This document shows, one piece after another, positions 22,619 to 30,002 of a DNA stretch of 64,000 nt. Source of the DNA: Desulfoprunum benzoelyticum (GTDB lineage: Bacteria > Desulfobacterota > Desulfobulbia > Desulfobulbales > Desulfocapsaceae); contig NZ_JACHEO010000006.1 of NCBI RefSeq assembly GCF_014201505.1, positions 1 through 64,000 on the forward strand, given 5' to 3'. The position numbers and the translations under genes are program-made. The notes below the pieces were generated by a model that worked only from the letters and a program-made list of their open reading frames with translations, had not been told where the DNA came from and made no database searches. The first letter of the stretch is position 1. The number at the start of each line of letters is the position of its first letter.

Positions 22619-23488
22619 TTATTCAACCCTGTCATACCGCATTTGGCTGATCTGTTCCGCTACCAGTCCAATCATAAAAATAATGATCGAGCTGTTAAAC
22701 AGCATGGCCGACATGTTGGTAAATCTTGCCGCCGTCACAAATGTATAAAAATAGTAGCCAAGAGCCACTGCAAAGAAAGCGGCACTAATCGGCAGAAACA
22801 CCCGCAGCGGCGAGAACAGGGTCGCGATCTTGGTGATGATAAGGAAAAACCGGGTGCCATCCTGGAACAGTTTTATTTTGCTCTTGCCGATGCGGTATTT
22901 CGTTTCGATCGGGACGTATTTGACGCTGCGGCCGCTGCGCAGGTAGGCCATCGTCAGGGTGGACGGGTAGGAAAAGGTGTTGGGCAGCAGGTAGATGAAC
23001 TGTCGGGCCGTGGACAGCCGAACCAGCCTGAAACCCGAGGTCAGATCCTCCACCTTGAATTTGGTCACATAGGAGGCGAACCAGTTGTAGACGGTGTTGG
23101 CGATGTCGCGGTGCATCGCCGTCTCGGAGTTGCTGCTCCGCGCCCCCACCACCATATCGTAGGTGTCTTTGTGTTCGAGGAGGCGGGCGATATCTTCCGG
23201 GGCGTGCTGGCCATCGGCATCCATCATCACCACCCATTCGCCCTGGGCCGCACGCAAGCCTGATTTGATCGCCGCCCCGTTGCCGATATTGTAGGGGTGG
23301 GGCCAGACATTGGCGCCGGCCTCCATTGCCTTTTGGAGGGTGGTGTCGGTTGATCCGTCGTCTACTACCAGGATTTCGTAATTTGGGTATAGTTCCCGGA
23401 TTCGGCGGATGGTGTCGCCGATGCTGAGTTCTTCGTTGTAGGCGGGTAGCAGGATGGTGACGGGGACCTTCTTTTTCTTCTCGTCCAC
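22619..23488 (-). CDS. DPM/GtrB-like family 2 glycosyltransferase with membrane anchor
   Basis: 289 aa. VTILLPAYNEELSIGDTI, LVVDDGSTDTT, IGNGAAIKSGLRAAQGEWVVMMDADGQH are the classic dolichyl/undecaprenyl-phosphate glycosyltransferase motifs. Two hydrophobic segments at about 232-285 anchor the C-terminus. Such enzymes make the polyprenyl-phosphate sugars used by GT-C transferases, so this one could supply donors for the pilin-linked GT-C proteins at 6-11 kb (inference). GTG start preceded by an AG-rich site. First gene of the leftward unit. Confidence 0.87.
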   Translation of the reverse strand: MDEKKKKVPVTILLPAYNEELSIGDTIRRIRELYPNYEILVVDDGSTDTTLQKAMEAGANVWPHPYNIGNGAAIKSGLRAAQGEWVVMMDADGQHAPEDIARLLEHKDTYDMVVGARSSNSETAMHRDIANTVYNWFASYVTKFKVEDLTSGFRLVRLSTARQFIYLLPNTFSYPSTLTMAYLRSGRSVKYVPIETKYRIGKSKIKLFQDGTRFFLIITKIATLFSPLRVFLPISAAFFAVALGYYFYTFVTAARFTNMSAMLFNSSIIIFMIGLVAEQISQMRYDRVE

Positions 23489-23689
23489 TCTCTTTCCCCT
23501 TTCCTGATTGGATTTTTTTTACTGCGTTTTGTGTTCGGTTGGTGGGCACTCGGAAATGTAGCCGGGATTGTGGTCTTGTGCAACTTTTGTAACGATTTGC
23601 GAAGGATAAACATATTGGGGAGGGTTTTGCAAAATTTATGTTGGGGTGGTGTTTGATTTCGGTTGTTGAAATGTGATTTGAGGGGGGAA

Positions 23690-24060
23690 AAGCAAGATTT
23701 CTCGCTTCGCTTCGAAATGACAGCGGGGGTGGGAGTTTGGGTTTGGCCCTATCGGGAATGGTGAAATTTCTCGCTTTGCTTGGAATGACAGCGGGGGTTG
23801 GAGTTTGGGTTTGGCCCTATCGGGAAGGGTGAGATTTCTCGCTTTGCTCGGAATGACAGCGGGGGTGGGGGTATGGGCTTGGCCTTAACGGGAACAGCAA
23901 GATTTCTCGCTTCGCTTCGAAATGACCGCGGGGGTTGGGTTTTGGACATTGGCCCTATCGGGAATGATGAGATTTCTCGCTTCGCTTCGAAATGACAGGA
24001 AGAAAAACGGAATGACAGCGGGGGTGAGAGTGTGGGCTTGGCCCTATCGGGAAGTATCTC
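23690..24060 (-). repeat. Array of five interspersed-repeat units, about 69-bp period, inverted
   Basis: The core GATTTCTCGC (the reverse complement of that at 4.6 kb) begins at 23696, 23765, 23833, 23901 and 23971, followed by a partial unit to about 24060. The unit lacks the extra CCGAGCCCCC block of the first array, which explains the shorter period. No gene lies between 23489 and 24149. Confidence 0.9.
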
Positions 24061-24120
24061 CCAATTCTCAAAACCGAACATCATCTCTGAGCATGGGCGC
24101 CGGCCAAGGGTAACAGGAAT

Positions 24121-24149
24121 TTGACAATCGTTAACTCTTTTGTTAATGT
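24121..24149 (+). promoter_or_regulatory. Sigma-70 promoter of the first HigBA-like module
   Basis: TTGACA at 24121, 17 nt, TAATGT at 24144. Repeated GTTAA words between the boxes could be antitoxin-binding sites. The predicted start is close to the ATG at 24156, so the transcript may be nearly leaderless. Confidence 0.6.
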
Positions 24150-24489
24150 ATGCGCATGGGATACGAAATCGAATACTATAGCGAAAAGGTACAGGAAGAA
24201 ATAGCCAGGCTGCCGAAAACCTTGGTTGCCCGCTACCTCAGACTTGCCGAGCGAATGATGGTTTTCGGTCCTGACTTGGGAATGCCACACAGCCGAGCCA
24301 TGAAAGGCGGCTTGTTTGAACTGCGCCTTATAGGCGCAGAGGGAATCGCAAGAGTTTTTTTACTGTACGGTAGCGGGACGTCGCATTGTCATATTGCATA
24401 GTTTTGTCAAAAAGACCAACCGAACGCCGAGTGCGGAACTTGCCGTCGCCAAGCGTCGATTGAAAGAGGTGTGCCATGTTAAGTCATGA
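24150..24489 (+). pseudogene. Frameshifted HigB/RelE-superfamily toxin
   Basis: The frame opens as YEIEYYSEKVQEEIARLPKT...SRAMKGGLFELRLIGAEGIARVF, a phage-derived Gp49-like/HigB toxin, then runs out of frame at a seven-T run (about 24355-24361). Removing one T restores the frame: VFYCTVAGRRIVILHSFVKK followed by TNRTPSAELAVAKRRLKEV, ending at 24489, where the stop overlaps the antitoxin start by 14 bp as in intact modules. The last step is inactivation, slippage-based control or a sequencing error; sequence alone cannot tell. Confidence 0.8.
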
Positions 24490-24763
24490 AGATTTTAAGA
24501 AAAAACTCCTTTCCGATCCGGAAGTAAAAAAAGAGTATGATCAACTTGAGCCGGAATTTTTGCTGCTTGATGAACTTCGCCGCGCTCGCGAGGCCTCCGG
24601 CTTGTCACAGGCCGAGATTGCCCGACGCATGGGAACCAAGCCACCGGCGTTGTCGCGCATGCTCTCCGGGATGTCGAGCGCCAAACACTCTCCATCGATT
24701 GCCACGCTACGGAAATACGCCGAGGCCTGTGGTATGAAGCTGCAGGTCCACATATCGAAATGA
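24476..24763 (+). CDS. HigA-like XRE antitoxin
   Basis: 95 aa helix-turn-helix protein: ARRMGTKPPALSRMLSG is the recognition helix region after LRRAREASGLSQAEI. It follows and overlaps the frameshifted toxin. Antitoxins of this family bind their own promoter and block the toxin. Intact, although its toxin is not. Confidence 0.85.
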   Translation: MLSHEDFKKKLLSDPEVKKEYDQLEPEFLLLDELRRAREASGLSQAEIARRMGTKPPALSRMLSGMSSAKHSPSIATLRKYAEACGMKLQVHISK

Positions 24764-24894
24764 TTGGCAGCGGGGTCAATGCCTTTTCCGAGTATGAGCG
24801 CGGCGTCAGGCAACCGGCCAAATCGACCGTCCTGCTGTTGAAGTTGCTCGATCGCCATCCCGACCTCCTCCCGGAGGTTCTGGCGGCATCCTGA
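24764..24894 (+). pseudogene. C-terminal remnant of an MqsA/YgiT-like antitoxin
   Basis: An open stretch of 42 codons (24766-24894) with no start reads GSGVNAFSEYERGVRQPAKS followed by a leucine-rich tail ending PEVLAAS. This matches the end of the HTH domain of MqsA-type antitoxins. The zinc-ribbon N-terminus and the toxin are missing. Confidence 0.55.
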
Positions 24895-24947
24895 ATGCTC
24901 GCATAATGTCCATGGCGTTGCCCTCCTCAATCCCACTTCCCGGCGAT

Positions 24948-25050
24948 TCATTTTGCAGTGGCCTTCTTAATGATCTCGGGGATGATCCCTTTGTCGATGA
25001 CGTCGGGGTTGCCGATCAGGCGACGGGGCTGCGAGGGAATATTGACACCT
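24948..25050 (-). pseudogene. Short coding-like remnant, unidentified
   Basis: On the minus strand an open frame without a start codon ends NPDVIDKGIIPEIIKKATAK at a stop at 24948. It reads like the tail of a real protein but I cannot place it. The rest of 24895-25076 holds nothing recognisable. Confidence 0.3.
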
Positions 25051-25076
25051 ATGTTTGTTGTTACTACAATAAATAA

Positions 25077-25349
25077 ATGGCTATTGAATTCGACCAGAAC
25101 AAACGCGACAAAACGCTGCAGCAGCGGGGTCTCGATTTCGCCAGGGCAGCAGAAGTCTTTGCTTCGGTCGCCGTCACCATCGAGGATATTCGCCGGGATT
25201 ACGGCGAAAAGAGATATATCTCCGTTGGTTTACTGGATCTCCGGGCTGTGGTTGTGGTCTGGACCCCACGCGGTAAAACTCGCCGCATCATTTCAATGAG
25301 GTACGCCAATGATCGCGAAAAAGAAAAGTACTCGAAGCACCTGGATTGA
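25077..25349 (+). CDS. brnT: BrnT-family toxin
   Basis: 90 aa RelE-fold ribonuclease toxin. FDQNKRDKTLQQRGLDFARAAEVF, then YGEKRYISVGLLDLRAVVVVWTPRGKTRRIISMRYANDREKEKY, is the BrnT pattern (start FDwDpaKa..., end R.ISaRkA...E...Y). Intact. It overlaps brnA by 41 bp, the normal toxin-first order for this family. A second, broken BrnT copy lies at 28150. Confidence 0.9.
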   Translation: MAIEFDQNKRDKTLQQRGLDFARAAEVFASVAVTIEDIRRDYGEKRYISVGLLDLRAVVVVWTPRGKTRRIISMRYANDREKEKYSKHLD

Positions 25350-25611
25350 TCCCGACGACGCCCCCGAGCTGACCGACGAGGACTTTGCTCGCGGCGTATG
25401 GACGATCGGTGAAAAAGTCGTTTCCCGTGAAGAGGCACTGAAAGCGCTCAATAAGGTCACGCGCGGTCGGCCGGCCGGAACGGCGACGAAATCATCAACC
25501 ACCGTCCGTTTCGACAACGACGTGCTGGACGCCTTCAAGGCCAGCGGCAAAGGCTGGCAGAGCCGCATGAACGCCGCCCTCCGCGACTGGTTGAAGGAAC
25601 ATCGGCCATGA
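25309..25611 (+). CDS. brnA: BrnA-family antitoxin
   Basis: 100 aa. N-terminal toxin-binding region (STRSTWIDPDDAPELTDEDF) and a C-terminal ribbon-helix-helix fold (STTVRFDNDVLDAFKASGKG). The last 55 residues are almost identical to those of the second BrnA at 28205, showing a recent duplication or conversion. Autoregulation by the RHH domain is known for the family. Confidence 0.9.
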   Translation: MIAKKKSTRSTWIDPDDAPELTDEDFARGVWTIGEKVVSREEALKALNKVTRGRPAGTATKSSTTVRFDNDVLDAFKASGKGWQSRMNAALRDWLKEHRP

Positions 25612-25644
25612 AGAACCAGGCGCCTCTTGTGCCATTCGAATATT

Positions 25645-25668
25645 TGACGTCATGACGTCATGACGTTA
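25645..25668. promoter_or_regulatory. Three tandem TGACGTCA sites, probable RHH operator
   Basis: Two perfect copies of the palindrome TGACGTCA (25645, 25653) are followed directly by TGACGTTA (25661). They lie 27 bp upstream of the RHH antitoxin start. Tandem short palindromes are how ribbon-helix-helix antitoxins bind. Confidence 0.75.
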
Positions 25669-25694
25669 CACTGTTGAAAACAGGGGGTGATTGT

Positions 25695-25928
25695 ATGTCT
25701 GCACAAGCGAAGAGAGCGACGATCTATTTTGACCCGGAGATACACAGGGCGCTGAAATTGAAAGCACTGGAAACTTCTCGATCGATTACCGATCTGGTCA
25801 ATCAGGCGGTAAAGGAGGCCCTGGCCGAGGATGCGGGAGATATTCTCGCCTGTGAGGAGCGGAAAAACGAGCCGCTGATCAGTTATGATCAAATGGTAAA
25901 AAAATTGAGGAAAGATGGAAGGATATAG
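25695..25928 (+). CDS. Ribbon-helix-helix antitoxin (RelB/CopG type)
   Basis: 77 aa from ATG 25695, placed after AGGGGG. The N-terminal RHH fold is AKRATIYFDPEIHRALKLKA followed by LETSRSITDLVNQAVKEAL; the C-terminal tail ENEPLISYDQMVKKLRKDGRI-like region wraps the toxin in relatives. It overlaps the RelE toxin by 14 bp and sits behind a tandem operator. Confidence 0.88.
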   Translation: MSAQAKRATIYFDPEIHRALKLKALETSRSITDLVNQAVKEALAEDAGDILACEERKNEPLISYDQMVKKLRKDGRI

Positions 25929-26181
25929 CATCTTCTTCAAAAAATCCGTCGAGAAGGATCTCGATGGCATACCAAAGAGCTCTTTGACGAAGATTCTCCA
26001 AAGAATAGAGGCTCTGAAGATAGATCCCCGGCCACGTGGGAGCGAAAAACTCACCGGCCAGGAACTGTATCGCATTCGGCAGGGACTATTCAGAATCGTT
26101 TACTCGATTCAAGACCGGGAATTGACAATCTGGATCATCAGGATCGCGCATCGCAGGGAAATATACAGGAAATTGCGATAG
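25915..26181 (+). CDS. RelE/ParE-family toxin
   Basis: 88 aa. YSIFFKKSVEKDLDGIPKSS, DPRPRGSEKLTGQELYRIRQ and FRIVYSIQDRELTIWIIRIAHRREIY follow the RelE pattern: ordered secondary structure with Arg/Tyr/His near the C-terminus, as in mRNA interferases. Intact and coupled to its antitoxin. Confidence 0.9.
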   Translation: MEGYSIFFKKSVEKDLDGIPKSSLTKILQRIEALKIDPRPRGSEKLTGQELYRIRQGLFRIVYSIQDRELTIWIIRIAHRREIYRKLR

Positions 26182-26219
26182 CCGGGGTTGTCATCGCGTC
26201 GAACACCGTTCTCCCTCTG

Positions 26220-26708
26220 TTATACATCCCAATCCGTGAGATTCAGCATGAGGGTCATCGGATTGAAAGGAGATTCCCGGAAACCATACCGGAGATAAAA
26301 ATCCTTTGCCGATTCGGAAAGGGCATGGACCAGAAGGGCCCGAATGCCGGCCTTGCGCGAAACGGTGAGGGTTCGCAGCACCGCGTCTTTCAACAGTCCG
26401 GCGCCGACACCGTGTTTCTGCCAATGCCGGGCAACGGCTAGTCGGCCCAGGACCATGACCGGCAGTGGGTCCGGCATCCCCCGTTTCACCCTGCCCGGGG
26501 CCTCTCCGCGTCGCACGCTGCCTGTGGCCAGAGCGTAAAAACCGACAACCCGCTGATGATCGCAGGTAACAAACGTCCGGGAGGCCCCTGTTGTTTCGTT
26601 GATCAGCGCCTGCCGCTGCAGCCACTGGTTCAGCGTTTGTATCCCGCAATCGAATTGATCGAGACCATGCCCTGGCGTGATTGGTTCCGGGGCGGTCAAT
26701 CTTCCCAT
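26220..26708 (-). CDS. GNAT-family acetyltransferase toxin (TacT-like)
   Basis: 162 aa. LGRLAVARHWQKHGVGAGLL is the acetyl-CoA pyrophosphate loop, and LSESAKDFYLRYGFRESPFNPMTL closes the GNAT fold. DQFDCGIQTLNQWLQRQAL near the N-terminus is typical of TacT/AtaT-type toxins that acetylate aminoacyl-tRNA. It overlaps a DUF1778 antitoxin by 13 bp, the standard partner. Transcribed opposite to the modules on both sides. Confidence 0.9.
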   Translation of the reverse strand: MGRLTAPEPITPGHGLDQFDCGIQTLNQWLQRQALINETTGASRTFVTCDHQRVVGFYALATGSVRRGEAPGRVKRGMPDPLPVMVLGRLAVARHWQKHGVGAGLLKDAVLRTLTVSRKAGIRALLVHALSESAKDFYLRYGFRESPFNPMTLMLNLTDWDV

Positions 26709-26968
26709 GGCGCCCTGGCGGCCAGGATTTTCTTCATCGCCTCGGCTGCAGGCGTCTTCAGGGCAGCCTCAAAGGCCGCGAACTCTTCCTCCTGAACGAA
26801 AAAAAGGCGTTGATCCAGCAGAACGTTTTCCGCCTCCCGGCAAGCGGCTTCGAGCATGAAATCGGATCGGCTTTTGTTCACCGCTGCCGCCGCGCTGTCG
26901 ATCAGGTTGCGTTGTGCGGCCAATGCCCTGATGTTGATCGGTGCTTTGCGCGTTTCAGTGTTCGCCAT
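26696..26968 (-). CDS. DUF1778/TacA-like antitoxin
   Basis: 90 aa from MANTETRKAPINIRALAAQR, which follows AAGGAGGACCTC; longer in-frame versions read through repeat DNA and are rejected. The N-terminal RHH domain binds DNA and the C-terminal FFVQEEEFAAFEAALKTPAA helix blocks the acetyltransferase in relatives. Confidence 0.9.
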   Translation of the reverse strand: MANTETRKAPINIRALAAQRNLIDSAAAAVNKSRSDFMLEAACREAENVLLDQRLFFVQEEEFAAFEAALKTPAAEAMKKILAARAPWED

Positions 26969-26989
26969 GAGGTCCTCCTTGTGCTTTTG

Positions 26990-27010
26990 TGTATATAACA
27001 TCAATATACA
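26990..27010. promoter_or_regulatory. Inverted repeat upstream of the TacA-like gene
   Basis: TGTATAT-AACATCA-ATATACA, perfect 7-bp arms, 21 bp before the antitoxin start. A likely operator for the RHH antitoxin. Confidence 0.65.
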
Positions 27011-27049
27011 CTTTGCACGGTTGCTGTCAATGTGCAATGCCTGCTGATG

Positions 27050-27190
27050 ACAACGGGGGAGAAATCTTGTCCTTCGCCCTATTGGGAACGACGAGATTTC
27101 TCGCTTCGCTTCGAAATGAAATGACAGGGAGGGCGGCGCCTCGTTTTTCGCCCTACCGGGAACAATTAGATTTCTCGCCGGCGCTCGACA
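27050..27190 (-). repeat. Two interspersed-repeat copies, 75 bp apart
   Basis: GATTTCTCGC at 27094 and 27169 with the flanking blocks CGCCCTATTGGGAAC and CGCCCTACCGGGAAC. Orientation matches the 23.7-kb array. It divides two toxin-antitoxin modules. Confidence 0.8.
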
Positions 27191-27222
27191 AGGGGGGAGG
27201 CCGGAATCGTAAGGGGAATTTC

Positions 27223-27251
27223 TTGACATGATGTAGCCTGTGGACTACATG
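27223..27251 (+). promoter_or_regulatory. Promoter with overlapping palindrome
   Basis: TTGACA at 27223, 17 nt, TACATG at 27246. The inverted repeat ATGTAG-N8-CTACAT (27231-27250) covers the spacer and -10 region, the expected layout for antitoxin autorepression. Confidence 0.65.
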
Positions 27252-27257
27252 GTGACC

Positions 27258-27344
27258 ATGAAATACGAGATCGAAAGAACAGAGCCGTTCGACAAGTGGC
27301 TGAAAAATCTGAAAGACCGCAAAGCCGTACGACAATATGGATAA
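27258..27344 (+). pseudogene. Truncated RelE-superfamily toxin (N-terminal 28 residues)
   Basis: YEIERTEPFDKWLKNLKDRKAV is the start of the RelE-like addiction-module killer family (about 100 aa when complete), but the frame stops after RQYG and runs into the antitoxin start. The middle and end of the gene appear deleted, while promoter, palindrome and antitoxin remain. Confidence 0.7.
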
Positions 27345-27648
27345 AGTAAAGACCAGCCCATACAATCCCTTTGATTATCTTGAGAACGATGAAGAGATAA
27401 ATGAATATTTGTCTGCGGCTTTCAATGATGAAGATCCGCACGTTTTCCTGATCGCCCTTGGTTACCTGGCCAAAAAGAGAGGTATGTCCGAAATTGCCCG
27501 GCTTACCGGGGTCAACAGGGAAAGTCTGTACAAGTCGCTTTCCGGAAAAGGAAACCCGGGGTTTGCCACAATCGCCAAGATAGCGAAAGCCCTGGGGCTT
27601 AGCCTGCACTGGGAGACCAAGGTCACGCAATTGCCGACCGCAAGTTGA
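27337..27648 (+). CDS. HigA-like antidote protein, XRE family
   Basis: 103 aa. Starts SPYNPFDYLENDEEINEYLSAAFND and carries the HTH SEIARLTGVNRESLYKSLSG, as in COG3636 antidote proteins. Complete, with its toxin reduced to a stub. Confidence 0.85.
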   Translation: MDKVKTSPYNPFDYLENDEEINEYLSAAFNDEDPHVFLIALGYLAKKRGMSEIARLTGVNRESLYKSLSGKGNPGFATIAKIAKALGLSLHWETKVTQLPTAS

Positions 27649-27655
27649 GAATGTT

Positions 27656-27745
27656 GAACATCGCCCGCACCCGGACAAAGCTGCCCTGCGGTATAGGGTC
27701 AAAGGCGCGAGAGATTTTTTGACACAGTTGAGGATAATGCCATGA
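27656..27745 (+). pseudogene. C-terminal remnant of a HicA toxin
   Basis: An open frame without a start reads EHRPHPDKAALRYRVKGARD then FLTQLRIMP, and its stop overlaps the hicB start by four bases. This is the HicA end (HRPHP...), so the toxin lost its N-terminal half including the catalytic His region. Confidence 0.65.
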
Positions 27746-28074
27746 ACGCAATGACCCACAAAGGCTATGCCGCTCGCGTTGAATTTGATGCCGAAGACCG
27801 CATTTTTGTGGGCCGCGTCATCGGTATCAGGGATGTTGTCAGTTTCCACGGAGAGACGGTTTCCGAACTGGAAAACTCTTTTCGTGAGGCCGTCGACGAC
27901 TACCTCGATGCCTGCGCGTCACTGGGCCAGCAGCCGAACAAACCATATTCCGGCAAGCTCCTGATCCGGGTAAACGCTGAAGTCCACGCTGCCGTGGCGG
28001 CTGCCGCCGAATCTGCCGGCAAGAGTCTGAACCAGTGGGCGGCAGAGGTCCTGAACAAAGCGGCTCATGCGTAA
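27742..28074 (+). CDS. hicB: HicB-family antitoxin
   Basis: 110 aa. KGYAARVEFDAEDRIFVGRV is the partial RNase H-like HicB fold, and RVNAEVHAAVAAAAESAGKS then LNQWAAEVL is the C-terminal RHH domain. Complete, whereas the coupled hicA is only a fragment. Confidence 0.88.
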   Translation: MNAMTHKGYAARVEFDAEDRIFVGRVIGIRDVVSFHGETVSELENSFREAVDDYLDACASLGQQPNKPYSGKLLIRVNAEVHAAVAAAAESAGKSLNQWAAEVLNKAAHA

Positions 28075-28097
28075 ATCGCCACCAGAAGGAATGGACC

Positions 28098-28142
28098 ATG
28101 GCGCTGAAAACACGCCCGTTCGATCCGGCTGAGTTTCACCCC
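28098..28142 (+). pseudogene. N-terminal stub of a HigA-like antidote gene
   Basis: MALKTRPFDPAEFHP is the conserved start of COG3636-type antidote proteins; similarity ends there, and after a few codons a BrnT tail begins in another frame. Confidence 0.45.
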
Positions 28143-28149
28143 TGTACCT

Positions 28150-28230
28150 GGTGGCGTTCGGGTTATCAGTTTTCGCAAAGCAAACGAGAGGGAGGCAAAA
28201 CGCTATGGCAAAGCGCTTACCACTGACTGA
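28150..28230 (+). pseudogene. C-terminal remnant of a BrnT toxin
   Basis: GGVRVISFRKANEREAKRYG and a tail KALTTD, ending at 28230, match the BrnT end and overlap the second brnA start as in intact modules. The first two thirds of the toxin are gone. Confidence 0.65.
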
Positions 28231-28480
28231 CAAGGACGGCGAAGTTCGGGAATTGACCATGGACGATCTCAAACATTTCAAACCGGCAACCGATATTTTG
28301 CCACGGGAATTGGCCGAGGTCTTGCCGAAACGCGGCCGCCCGGCCGGAACGGCAGCGAAAACATCGACAACCGTCCGTTTCGACAACGACGTGCTGGAAG
28401 CCTTCAAGGCCAGCGGCAAAGGCTGGCAGAGCCGCATGAACGCCGCTCTCCGCGACTGGTTGAAGGAACATCGGCCATGA
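28205..28480 (+). CDS. BrnA-family antitoxin, second copy
   Basis: 91 aa. MAKRLPLTDKDGEVRELTMD begins the toxin-binding region; the RHH domain TTVRFDNDVLEAFKASGKG and the rest of the C-terminus are nearly identical to the 25309 BrnA, including at DNA level (about 25452-25615 versus 28321-28484). It could still neutralise the intact BrnT at 25077. The direct repeat could recombine and delete the 2.9 kb in between. Confidence 0.87.
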   Translation: MAKRLPLTDKDGEVRELTMDDLKHFKPATDILPRELAEVLPKRGRPAGTAAKTSTTVRFDNDVLEAFKASGKGWQSRMNAALRDWLKEHRP

Positions 28481-28641
28481 AGAGCCGGCAGCGAGATATC
28501 TCGTGTTTTCAATGAGATATCTTCATGCGGAGATCTCTCCAAGGCGCGCGAGATGACATGGGGAGGAAAGTCGAGATGACAGCGGAGAAAGGCCGAAATG
28601 ACGGGGCCGGAAAGATCGAAATCTGAACCTTGAACGCAGAA

Positions 28642-28697: not shown

Positions 28698-30002
28698 TTA
28701 TTTCCCGCCCTTCGCGATGCTCATGTTCTTGGTGACGGCAAACCATTTCTGGGCGTTGCCCTCATCATCCTTCTTGCCGTACGGCTGATACCATACCTCG
28801 ACATCGACGGTGAAGTCGTTGGCGATGATGGTCCGAACCAGCTTGTCGTCCTTCGTTGCCTCGGTGTAGACGGGGATCGTGAATTTTTCCCTGGTCGTCT
28901 TCAACGGCGGCAGGCTGGAATCGCGCAGGATGCCGCTCTTCTCGTACGGTCCACGGCCCATCTTGTCGCCCCGGCCCATCTGCTGCGGAACCGGCATGTA
29001 GATTTTTTCGTTTTCGTAGAATACCTTGCCATCAGCTGTTTTCGCGGTCACATACAGGACCACCCGGTTTGGGGTCGGTCAGCCGTCCGGAATGGGGTGA
29101 CCGGCCTTGTTCGTCAGCTCGACGATGACATCGGCCAGCGGCGTCATGGTCGAACCGTCACGCCACTGATACGCCTCGGCCTCGACCTCGACCTGCAGCG
29201 CCATCTTGACCATCTCGGGTGAACGGTAGCTCTGCATGTCATGACCGAGCCCGCTCTTCTCCATATGGCATTCCTGGCAGGTTTCGACCCCGCCTTCGGC
29301 CTTGTAGGTATAGAGATGGGCGCCGTAGAGCGTGGCGCACTGGGTCGGGTTTTCCAGCTCGAAATTCGGTCCCAGGCCATGGCACTGACCGCAGAGGATC
29401 GATTCCTTCATGATCTTGCTCTCTTTCATCACCGGATAGTTTTCGTCCTCATGCTCGCCATCCTGGGTGCCATAGACTGCATTTTTCTGCGGGACGCCAT
29501 CCGTCCACTTATGGATAATGGCATTCCGTCCGTGACAGACGGTACAACCGATATTCAACGTCTGCAGGGTCTCGGCCGCCTCTTCATCGCCATCCTCGGC
29601 AAAGGCGTAGATGTTCTTGACGATTTCCTGGGCGACGCTGTCCTCGGCATCTTCCAGCTGCGGCAGATGGCACTTGGCGCAGATCATCAGGTGCTTGATG
29701 CCGACATCCTCGGGTTCCTGCACTCCGGAATGCTCCCATTCCATCAAGCCGTTCTCGATCGTCGTCCTGAAGGTCGCGGCGGTTCTGCCGGTATTTTCCG
29801 GACCGAAAATCGAGCGGGCGTGGAGTGATTTCTGCCACTGCTCATGAACTTCCGTATGGCAGTCGATACATCCGCTCGAATCGTACATTGCCACCAGTTC
29901 GGCAATGGTTTTGGCTTTCTTCTCCTCAGCCGCCTGGGCGCCGGTCAACATCAACGGCACGGCGAGCCCGAGCAGTACGGTCATGCTCTTGAAAAATCTC
30001 AT
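28698..30002 (-). CDS. Pentahaem c-type cytochrome with in-frame UGA, candidate selenoprotein
   Basis: 434 codons if the UGA at 29079-29081 (codon 308) is read. Signal peptide at 1-24 (MTVLLGLAVPLMLTGAQAA). Five CXXCH haem sites at 45, 108, 153, 204 and 242. The UGA separates GHPIPDG from PTPNRVVLYVTAKTADGKVF in one continuous frame; the second part has no ribosome binding site or signal and reads as the rest of a beta-rich domain ending at 28698. Selenocysteine is therefore likely, with loss of a Cys codon or a point-mutated pseudogene as alternatives. The name ExtKL, used as I recall for Geobacter-type cytochromes in which some members carry selenocysteine, may apply. AGGAGGAGG precedes the ATG. 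Confidence 0.72.
29044..29080 (-). promoter_or_regulatory. Candidate bacterial SECIS hairpins after the UGA
   Basis: Two alternative stems follow the UGA in the mRNA: GACC-G-ACCC paired with GGGU-GGUC (29058-29080), and GUGGUC paired with GACCGC closing an 8-nt loop CUGUAUGU (29044-29063) that begins 22 nt after the UGA. The second has the distance expected of bacterial SECIS elements, though its first loop bases are not the usual G. Confidence 0.4.

Follow-up and report, generated by a model that had tools for sequence, protein, structure and literature searches.

The extKL gene of Desulfoprunum benzoelyticum very probably encodes an exported pentahaem c-type cytochrome, ExtKL, in which UGA codon 308 would be decoded as selenocysteine with the aid of SelB and a SECIS element, giving one 434-residue protein. 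We put the probability of this reading at roughly 95%. Selenocysteine at this UGA had been proposed in an initial annotation, and the proposal is now supported by the exchange of UGA and cysteine codons at one alignment column, the sel genes of the genome, a SECIS-like signal, and the recurrence of the TGA in other species. The gene is a further member of ExtKL, an already named and structurally solved selenoprotein family, and not a new candidate; the step forward is therefore small. Nonetheless, standard annotation would have split or truncated this gene, which is corrected here, and the case for ExtKL use outside the Geobacter ext cluster gains another example. To our knowledge, few cytochromes carry selenocysteine.

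A single reading frame continues through an in-frame UGA

Within the 64,000-nucleotide stretch of DNA that we analysed (the window), extKL runs on the minus strand from an ATG at 30002 to a TAA that ends at 28698 and comprises 434 sense codons (Table 1). The initial annotation had described a single UGA interrupting an otherwise open frame, coding sequence on both sides of it, and a second half with neither a ribosome-binding site nor a signal peptide; all three points were borne out. The first half is preceded by a strong Shine-Dalgarno sequence. In the second half the earliest possible start codon, a GTG at 29063, is accompanied by neither a Shine-Dalgarno nor a signal peptide on reading of the sequence. 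In comparisons of extKL with its three closest relatives (L001, L005 and L007), for which dS is near saturation, dN/dS was 0.05–0.08 upstream of the TGA and 0.08–0.13 downstream. By these estimates purifying selection is acting on both halves of the gene, and both halves are therefore coding.

Table 1. Features of extKL and its flanks, in window coordinates
Feature	Position	Strand	Basis
Shine-Dalgarno AGGAGGAGGT, abutting the extKL start codon	30003..30012	minus	read from sequence
extKL, pentahaem c-type cytochrome selenoprotein gene (ExtK and ExtL in a single frame)	28698..30002	minus	NF040886 match
Putative signal peptide, residues 1–24, assumed cleavage site	29931..30002	minus	translation, by eye
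Haem-binding motif 1, CIDCH, C45–H49	29856..29870	minus	translation; invariant in 50 relatives
Haem-binding motif 2, CAKCH, C108–H112	29667..29681	minus	translation; invariant in 50 relatives
Haem-binding motif 3, CTVCH, C153–H157	29532..29546	minus	translation; invariant in 50 relatives
Haem-binding motif 4, CGQCH, C204–H208	29379..29393	minus	translation; invariant in 50 relatives
Haem-binding motif 5, CQECH, C242–H246	29265..29279	minus	translation; invariant in 50 relatives
Sec-loop motif G-H302-x-I-P-D-G-U308-P-T	29073..29102	minus	His302 invariant in 50 relatives
In-frame TGA, codon 308, probably read as selenocysteine	29079..29081	minus	sole in-frame TGA of extKL
Candidate bacterial SECIS hairpin GUGGUC-C-[UGUAU]-G-U(bulge)-GACCGC	29044..29063	minus	folding; family-wide synonymous constraint

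Read through the UGA, the protein scores 581.4 bits against NCBIfam NF040886 ("multiheme c-type cytochrome (seleno)protein ExtKL"), well above the curated cut-off of 250 bits, with residues 8–429 covering profile positions 11–422 of 423. This essentially full-length match upholds the family name ExtKL given in the initial annotation. Searching the genome with the same profile returned a sole copy, at 574 bits and with one TGA inside the match, and Pfam recognized general multihaem domains only. Because the frame scores 581 bits across a curated family profile and both of its halves are under purifying selection, it did not arise by chance. The corresponding split gene of Geobacter sulfurreducens was flagged in 2007 (PMC1914089) and treated as selenocysteine-containing ExtKL in 2018 (PMC5877670, PMC6148476), and a 2026 review counts ExtKL among selenoprotein families under NF040886 (PMC13188914).

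A solved homologue carries a non-standard residue opposite codon 308

For the mature protein, AlphaFold (pLDDT 91.5, pTM 0.88) predicts a helical pentahaem N-terminal part followed by an immunoglobulin-like beta-sandwich as the C-terminal domain. Sec308 is placed by the model in a loop of the beta-sandwich, six residues past the invariant His302 (GHxIPDGU). Besides the CXXCH histidines, the alignment shows three invariant histidines, His61, His254 and His302 of the precursor, corresponding to mature His37, His230 and His278. We infer that His302 ligates a haem near the selenocysteine.

A close homologue is already in the PDB as "Multiheme cytochrome c selenoprotein (MccSep)", with two sequences spread over five entries (9WT8, 9WT9, 9WTA, 9WTB and 9WTC). 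Although it is the protein of another organism, MccSep matches residues 25–434 with a phmmer E-value of 1.3e-162 and shares the motif IPDG(X)PTPNR, in which the non-standard residue X aligns exactly to codon 308; the other sequence is described as the mutant U325A. A more distant structural relative, the pentahaem cytochrome c552 of Thermochromatium tepidum (PDB 5ZE8), has the same overall fold as the predicted model (VIA-align Z 22.9, 314 residues, rmsd 3.3 Å), but is only 17–19% identical to ExtKL and reads PHAMPTGAP instead of GHxIPDGUP, with alanine at the Sec position.

UGA and cysteine share one column across the family

The initial annotation had pointed to codon 308 in relatives as informative, and the codon there is U in nearly all of them and Cys in four. 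Every one of 24 loci retrieved from species-level genomes reads TGA at this column, within the motif IPDGUP. Across 395 genomes of the phylum, NF040886 matched above the cut-off 50 times, and 43 of these matches have exactly one TGA in frame. Cysteine (TGT) occupies the column in L074, the second copy of L075, L076 and L077, and valine or isoleucine occupies it in a paralogue type with PDS(V/I)SSNHR (L064/L078 and the first copy of L075). Exchange of selenocysteine and cysteine at one fixed column is a classic sign of a selenoprotein.

Several individual loci depart from the common pattern. Tandem ExtKL paralogues (L075:3155-4384, L075:4509-5744 and L064:1537-2766) have isoleucine, valine or cysteine in place of selenocysteine, and the change from PDGU to PDS(I/V)SS in the isoleucine and valine copies suggests, at the level of sequence, that Sec function was lost in these extra copies. 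The cysteine-type L077:3713-4762 carries a TAA in frame, at codon 51 of its match, which could reflect a pseudogene or an assembly error. At L014:6004-7254, the TGA at the Sec column is followed by an in-frame TAG 39 codons further on.

Were the UGA of extKL a true stop, only a 307-residue pentahaem cytochrome would be made, and the downstream frame would be a separate gene or a relic. Where decoding of a UGA is inefficient, part of the product may always terminate there. Consistent with termination, the Geobacter sulfurreducens gene has been annotated as two, extK and extL (PMC6148476, PMC1914089). Yet the downstream half is under purifying selection while having no ribosome-binding site of its own, and together with upstream strands it makes up one domain in the confident AlphaFold model. 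The cysteine members, moreover, are fused into one open frame with no stop, and MccSep is an already solved homologue in which the UGA position is read through. A true stop is thus very improbable.

The genome encodes the selenocysteine machinery

Decoding of UGA 308 as selenocysteine calls on a machinery that is complete in this genome, where selA, selB, selC and selD, four genes singled out at the outset as a check on the selenocysteine reading, are all present. Matches to selA and selB score 632 and 342 bits, and the tRNA-Sec gene selC scores 69 bits and has the anticodon TCA. There are two selD genes, on other contigs (L043 and L044), each with its own in-frame TGA at the usual GUAxK position (GUAAK and GUASK); to judge from these codons, both selD products are apparently selenoproteins themselves. 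Three molybdopterin oxidoreductases of the genome also contain one TGA each.

These findings bear on a second reading, in which UGA would specify another amino acid, such as tryptophan under code 4, or be passed by generic readthrough. An in-frame TGA by itself leaves the inserted residue unspecified, but the full Sec machinery argues for selenocysteine, and TGA is used as a normal stop codon within the window, where it ends 25 of the 42 long non-overlapping ORFs (a mechanical list that includes some spurious ORFs). Relatives with an intact PDG motif substitute cysteine and never tryptophan, and the PDB mutant is named U325A. We regard such recoding as highly unlikely. Least plausible of all is a sequencing error or a recent nonsense mutation that made extKL a pseudogene, for which we found no supporting evidence: the same TGA turns up in the independently sequenced genomes of dozens of species, including isolates of Desulfobulbus elongatus, Desulfuromusa kysingii and Desulfofustis glycolicus, so sequencing error is excluded and the earlier worry that the codon might be corrected away is gone. 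With the cysteine members, the recurrent TGA, the Sec machinery and MccSep in view, we rejected a true stop, a pseudogene and UGA as tryptophan alike.

A SECIS-like signal follows the UGA

A SECIS search of the mRNA had been suggested, and a SECIS-like signal does follow the UGA, in the form of a hairpin combined with family-wide synonymous constraint. Read from 29063 to 29044, the candidate is GUGGUCC-UGUAU-GUGACCGC; its loop begins 23 nt after the UGA and has G at position 2. In most relatives the sequence can fold into a short stem whose apical loop of five bases, U-G-(G/U)-A-N, is closed by C-G and lies some 23 nt from the UGA; a single bulged base occurs at differing places. Synonymous variation falls to the minimum of the gene in windows starting −2 to +5 codons from the UGA (131 windows, 58 UGA sequences); a minimum at and just after the UGA is the pattern expected for a SECIS.

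Compared with synonymous shuffles, UGA sequences folded with a mean z of −1.28, versus −0.12 for non-UGA sequences (Mann-Whitney p 0.007), in a comparison where the sequences are related to each other and the control group is small (six). By the same comparison, the hairpin of the window on its own was not significant (p about 0.22). RNAalifold gave no consensus fold over 47 main-type UGA sequences or over all UGA sequences, probably because the bulge shifts between sequences, and an Rfam scan at the UGA site found no family near its gathering score. We consider a SECIS after the extKL UGA likely, not proven.

For nine Desulfuromonas-type sequences, RNAalifold predicted a different hairpin. 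In this type of extKL (L009, L010, L018, L052 and relatives) the hairpin is ACCGAC-UGGUUCU-GUCGGU and lies closer to the UGA than in other lineages. One orthologous family may thus hold two SECIS solutions.

In the mechanism we propose, SelB with Sec-tRNA(UCA) would act together with the hairpin just past the UGA to place selenocysteine at codon 308. Translation in Desulfoprunum benzoelyticum would then pass through the UGA to give the full-length protein instead of the 307-residue product, and this protein would be exported and loaded with haem.

extKL stands apart from an ext cluster

In the window, extKL stands alone. Read by eye, its neighbours are a regulator-like gene upstream, which reads as cyclic-nucleotide-binding, and small toxin-antitoxin-like genes downstream; no ext genes adjoin it. 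A query with the Desulfuromusa ExtI porin matched two control genomes but neither this one nor any of five further members of the same order. An ExtM-like multihaem gene lies on another contig, unlinked to extKL. Placement in an ext cluster is usual in Geobacteraceae, but is neither required by the NF040886 model nor defining. Gene order and sequence features indicate that extKL of Desulfuromusa kysingii (L009) belongs to a complete ext cluster that also includes a rhodanese, a porin and additional cytochromes. The Geobacter sulfurreducens ExtKL (GSU2937-GSU2936; NF040886) is likewise a pentahaem cytochrome, its cytochrome and C-terminal parts separated by a single in-frame UGA, but its gene sits inside the extHIJKLMNOPQS cluster, whereas here it is alone in a Desulfobulbaceae-like genome. 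In cable bacteria, the short pentahaem cytochromes (sPHC) offer a parallel in gene arrangement: PMC11976967 describes them as ExtKL homologues, encoded in one strain by a two-gene structure, with ExtM and ExtN homologues dispersed across the genome as here.

Selenocysteine and a nearby haem would together make up a redox-active site whose substrate may be selenite or another oxyanion, and a periplasmic redox role for ExtKL may be inferred. The authors of PMC5877670 propose a link of ExtKL to selenite reduction. More speculatively, ExtKL in Desulfobulbaceae and similar lineages might be a stand-alone periplasmic enzyme that works without the ext porin cluster, with Sec308 and the His302-ligated haem as a single catalytic site for an oxyanion, an idea we hold as tentative and on balance doubtful.

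Small toxin-antitoxin-like ORFs, together with repeated 'AKREISSFP' elements in the intergenic spaces, fill some 5 kb (23600-28500) that separates extKL from a glycosyltransferase gene (22619-23488). This stretch looks inserted, because the glycosyltransferase directly follows extKL in L007.
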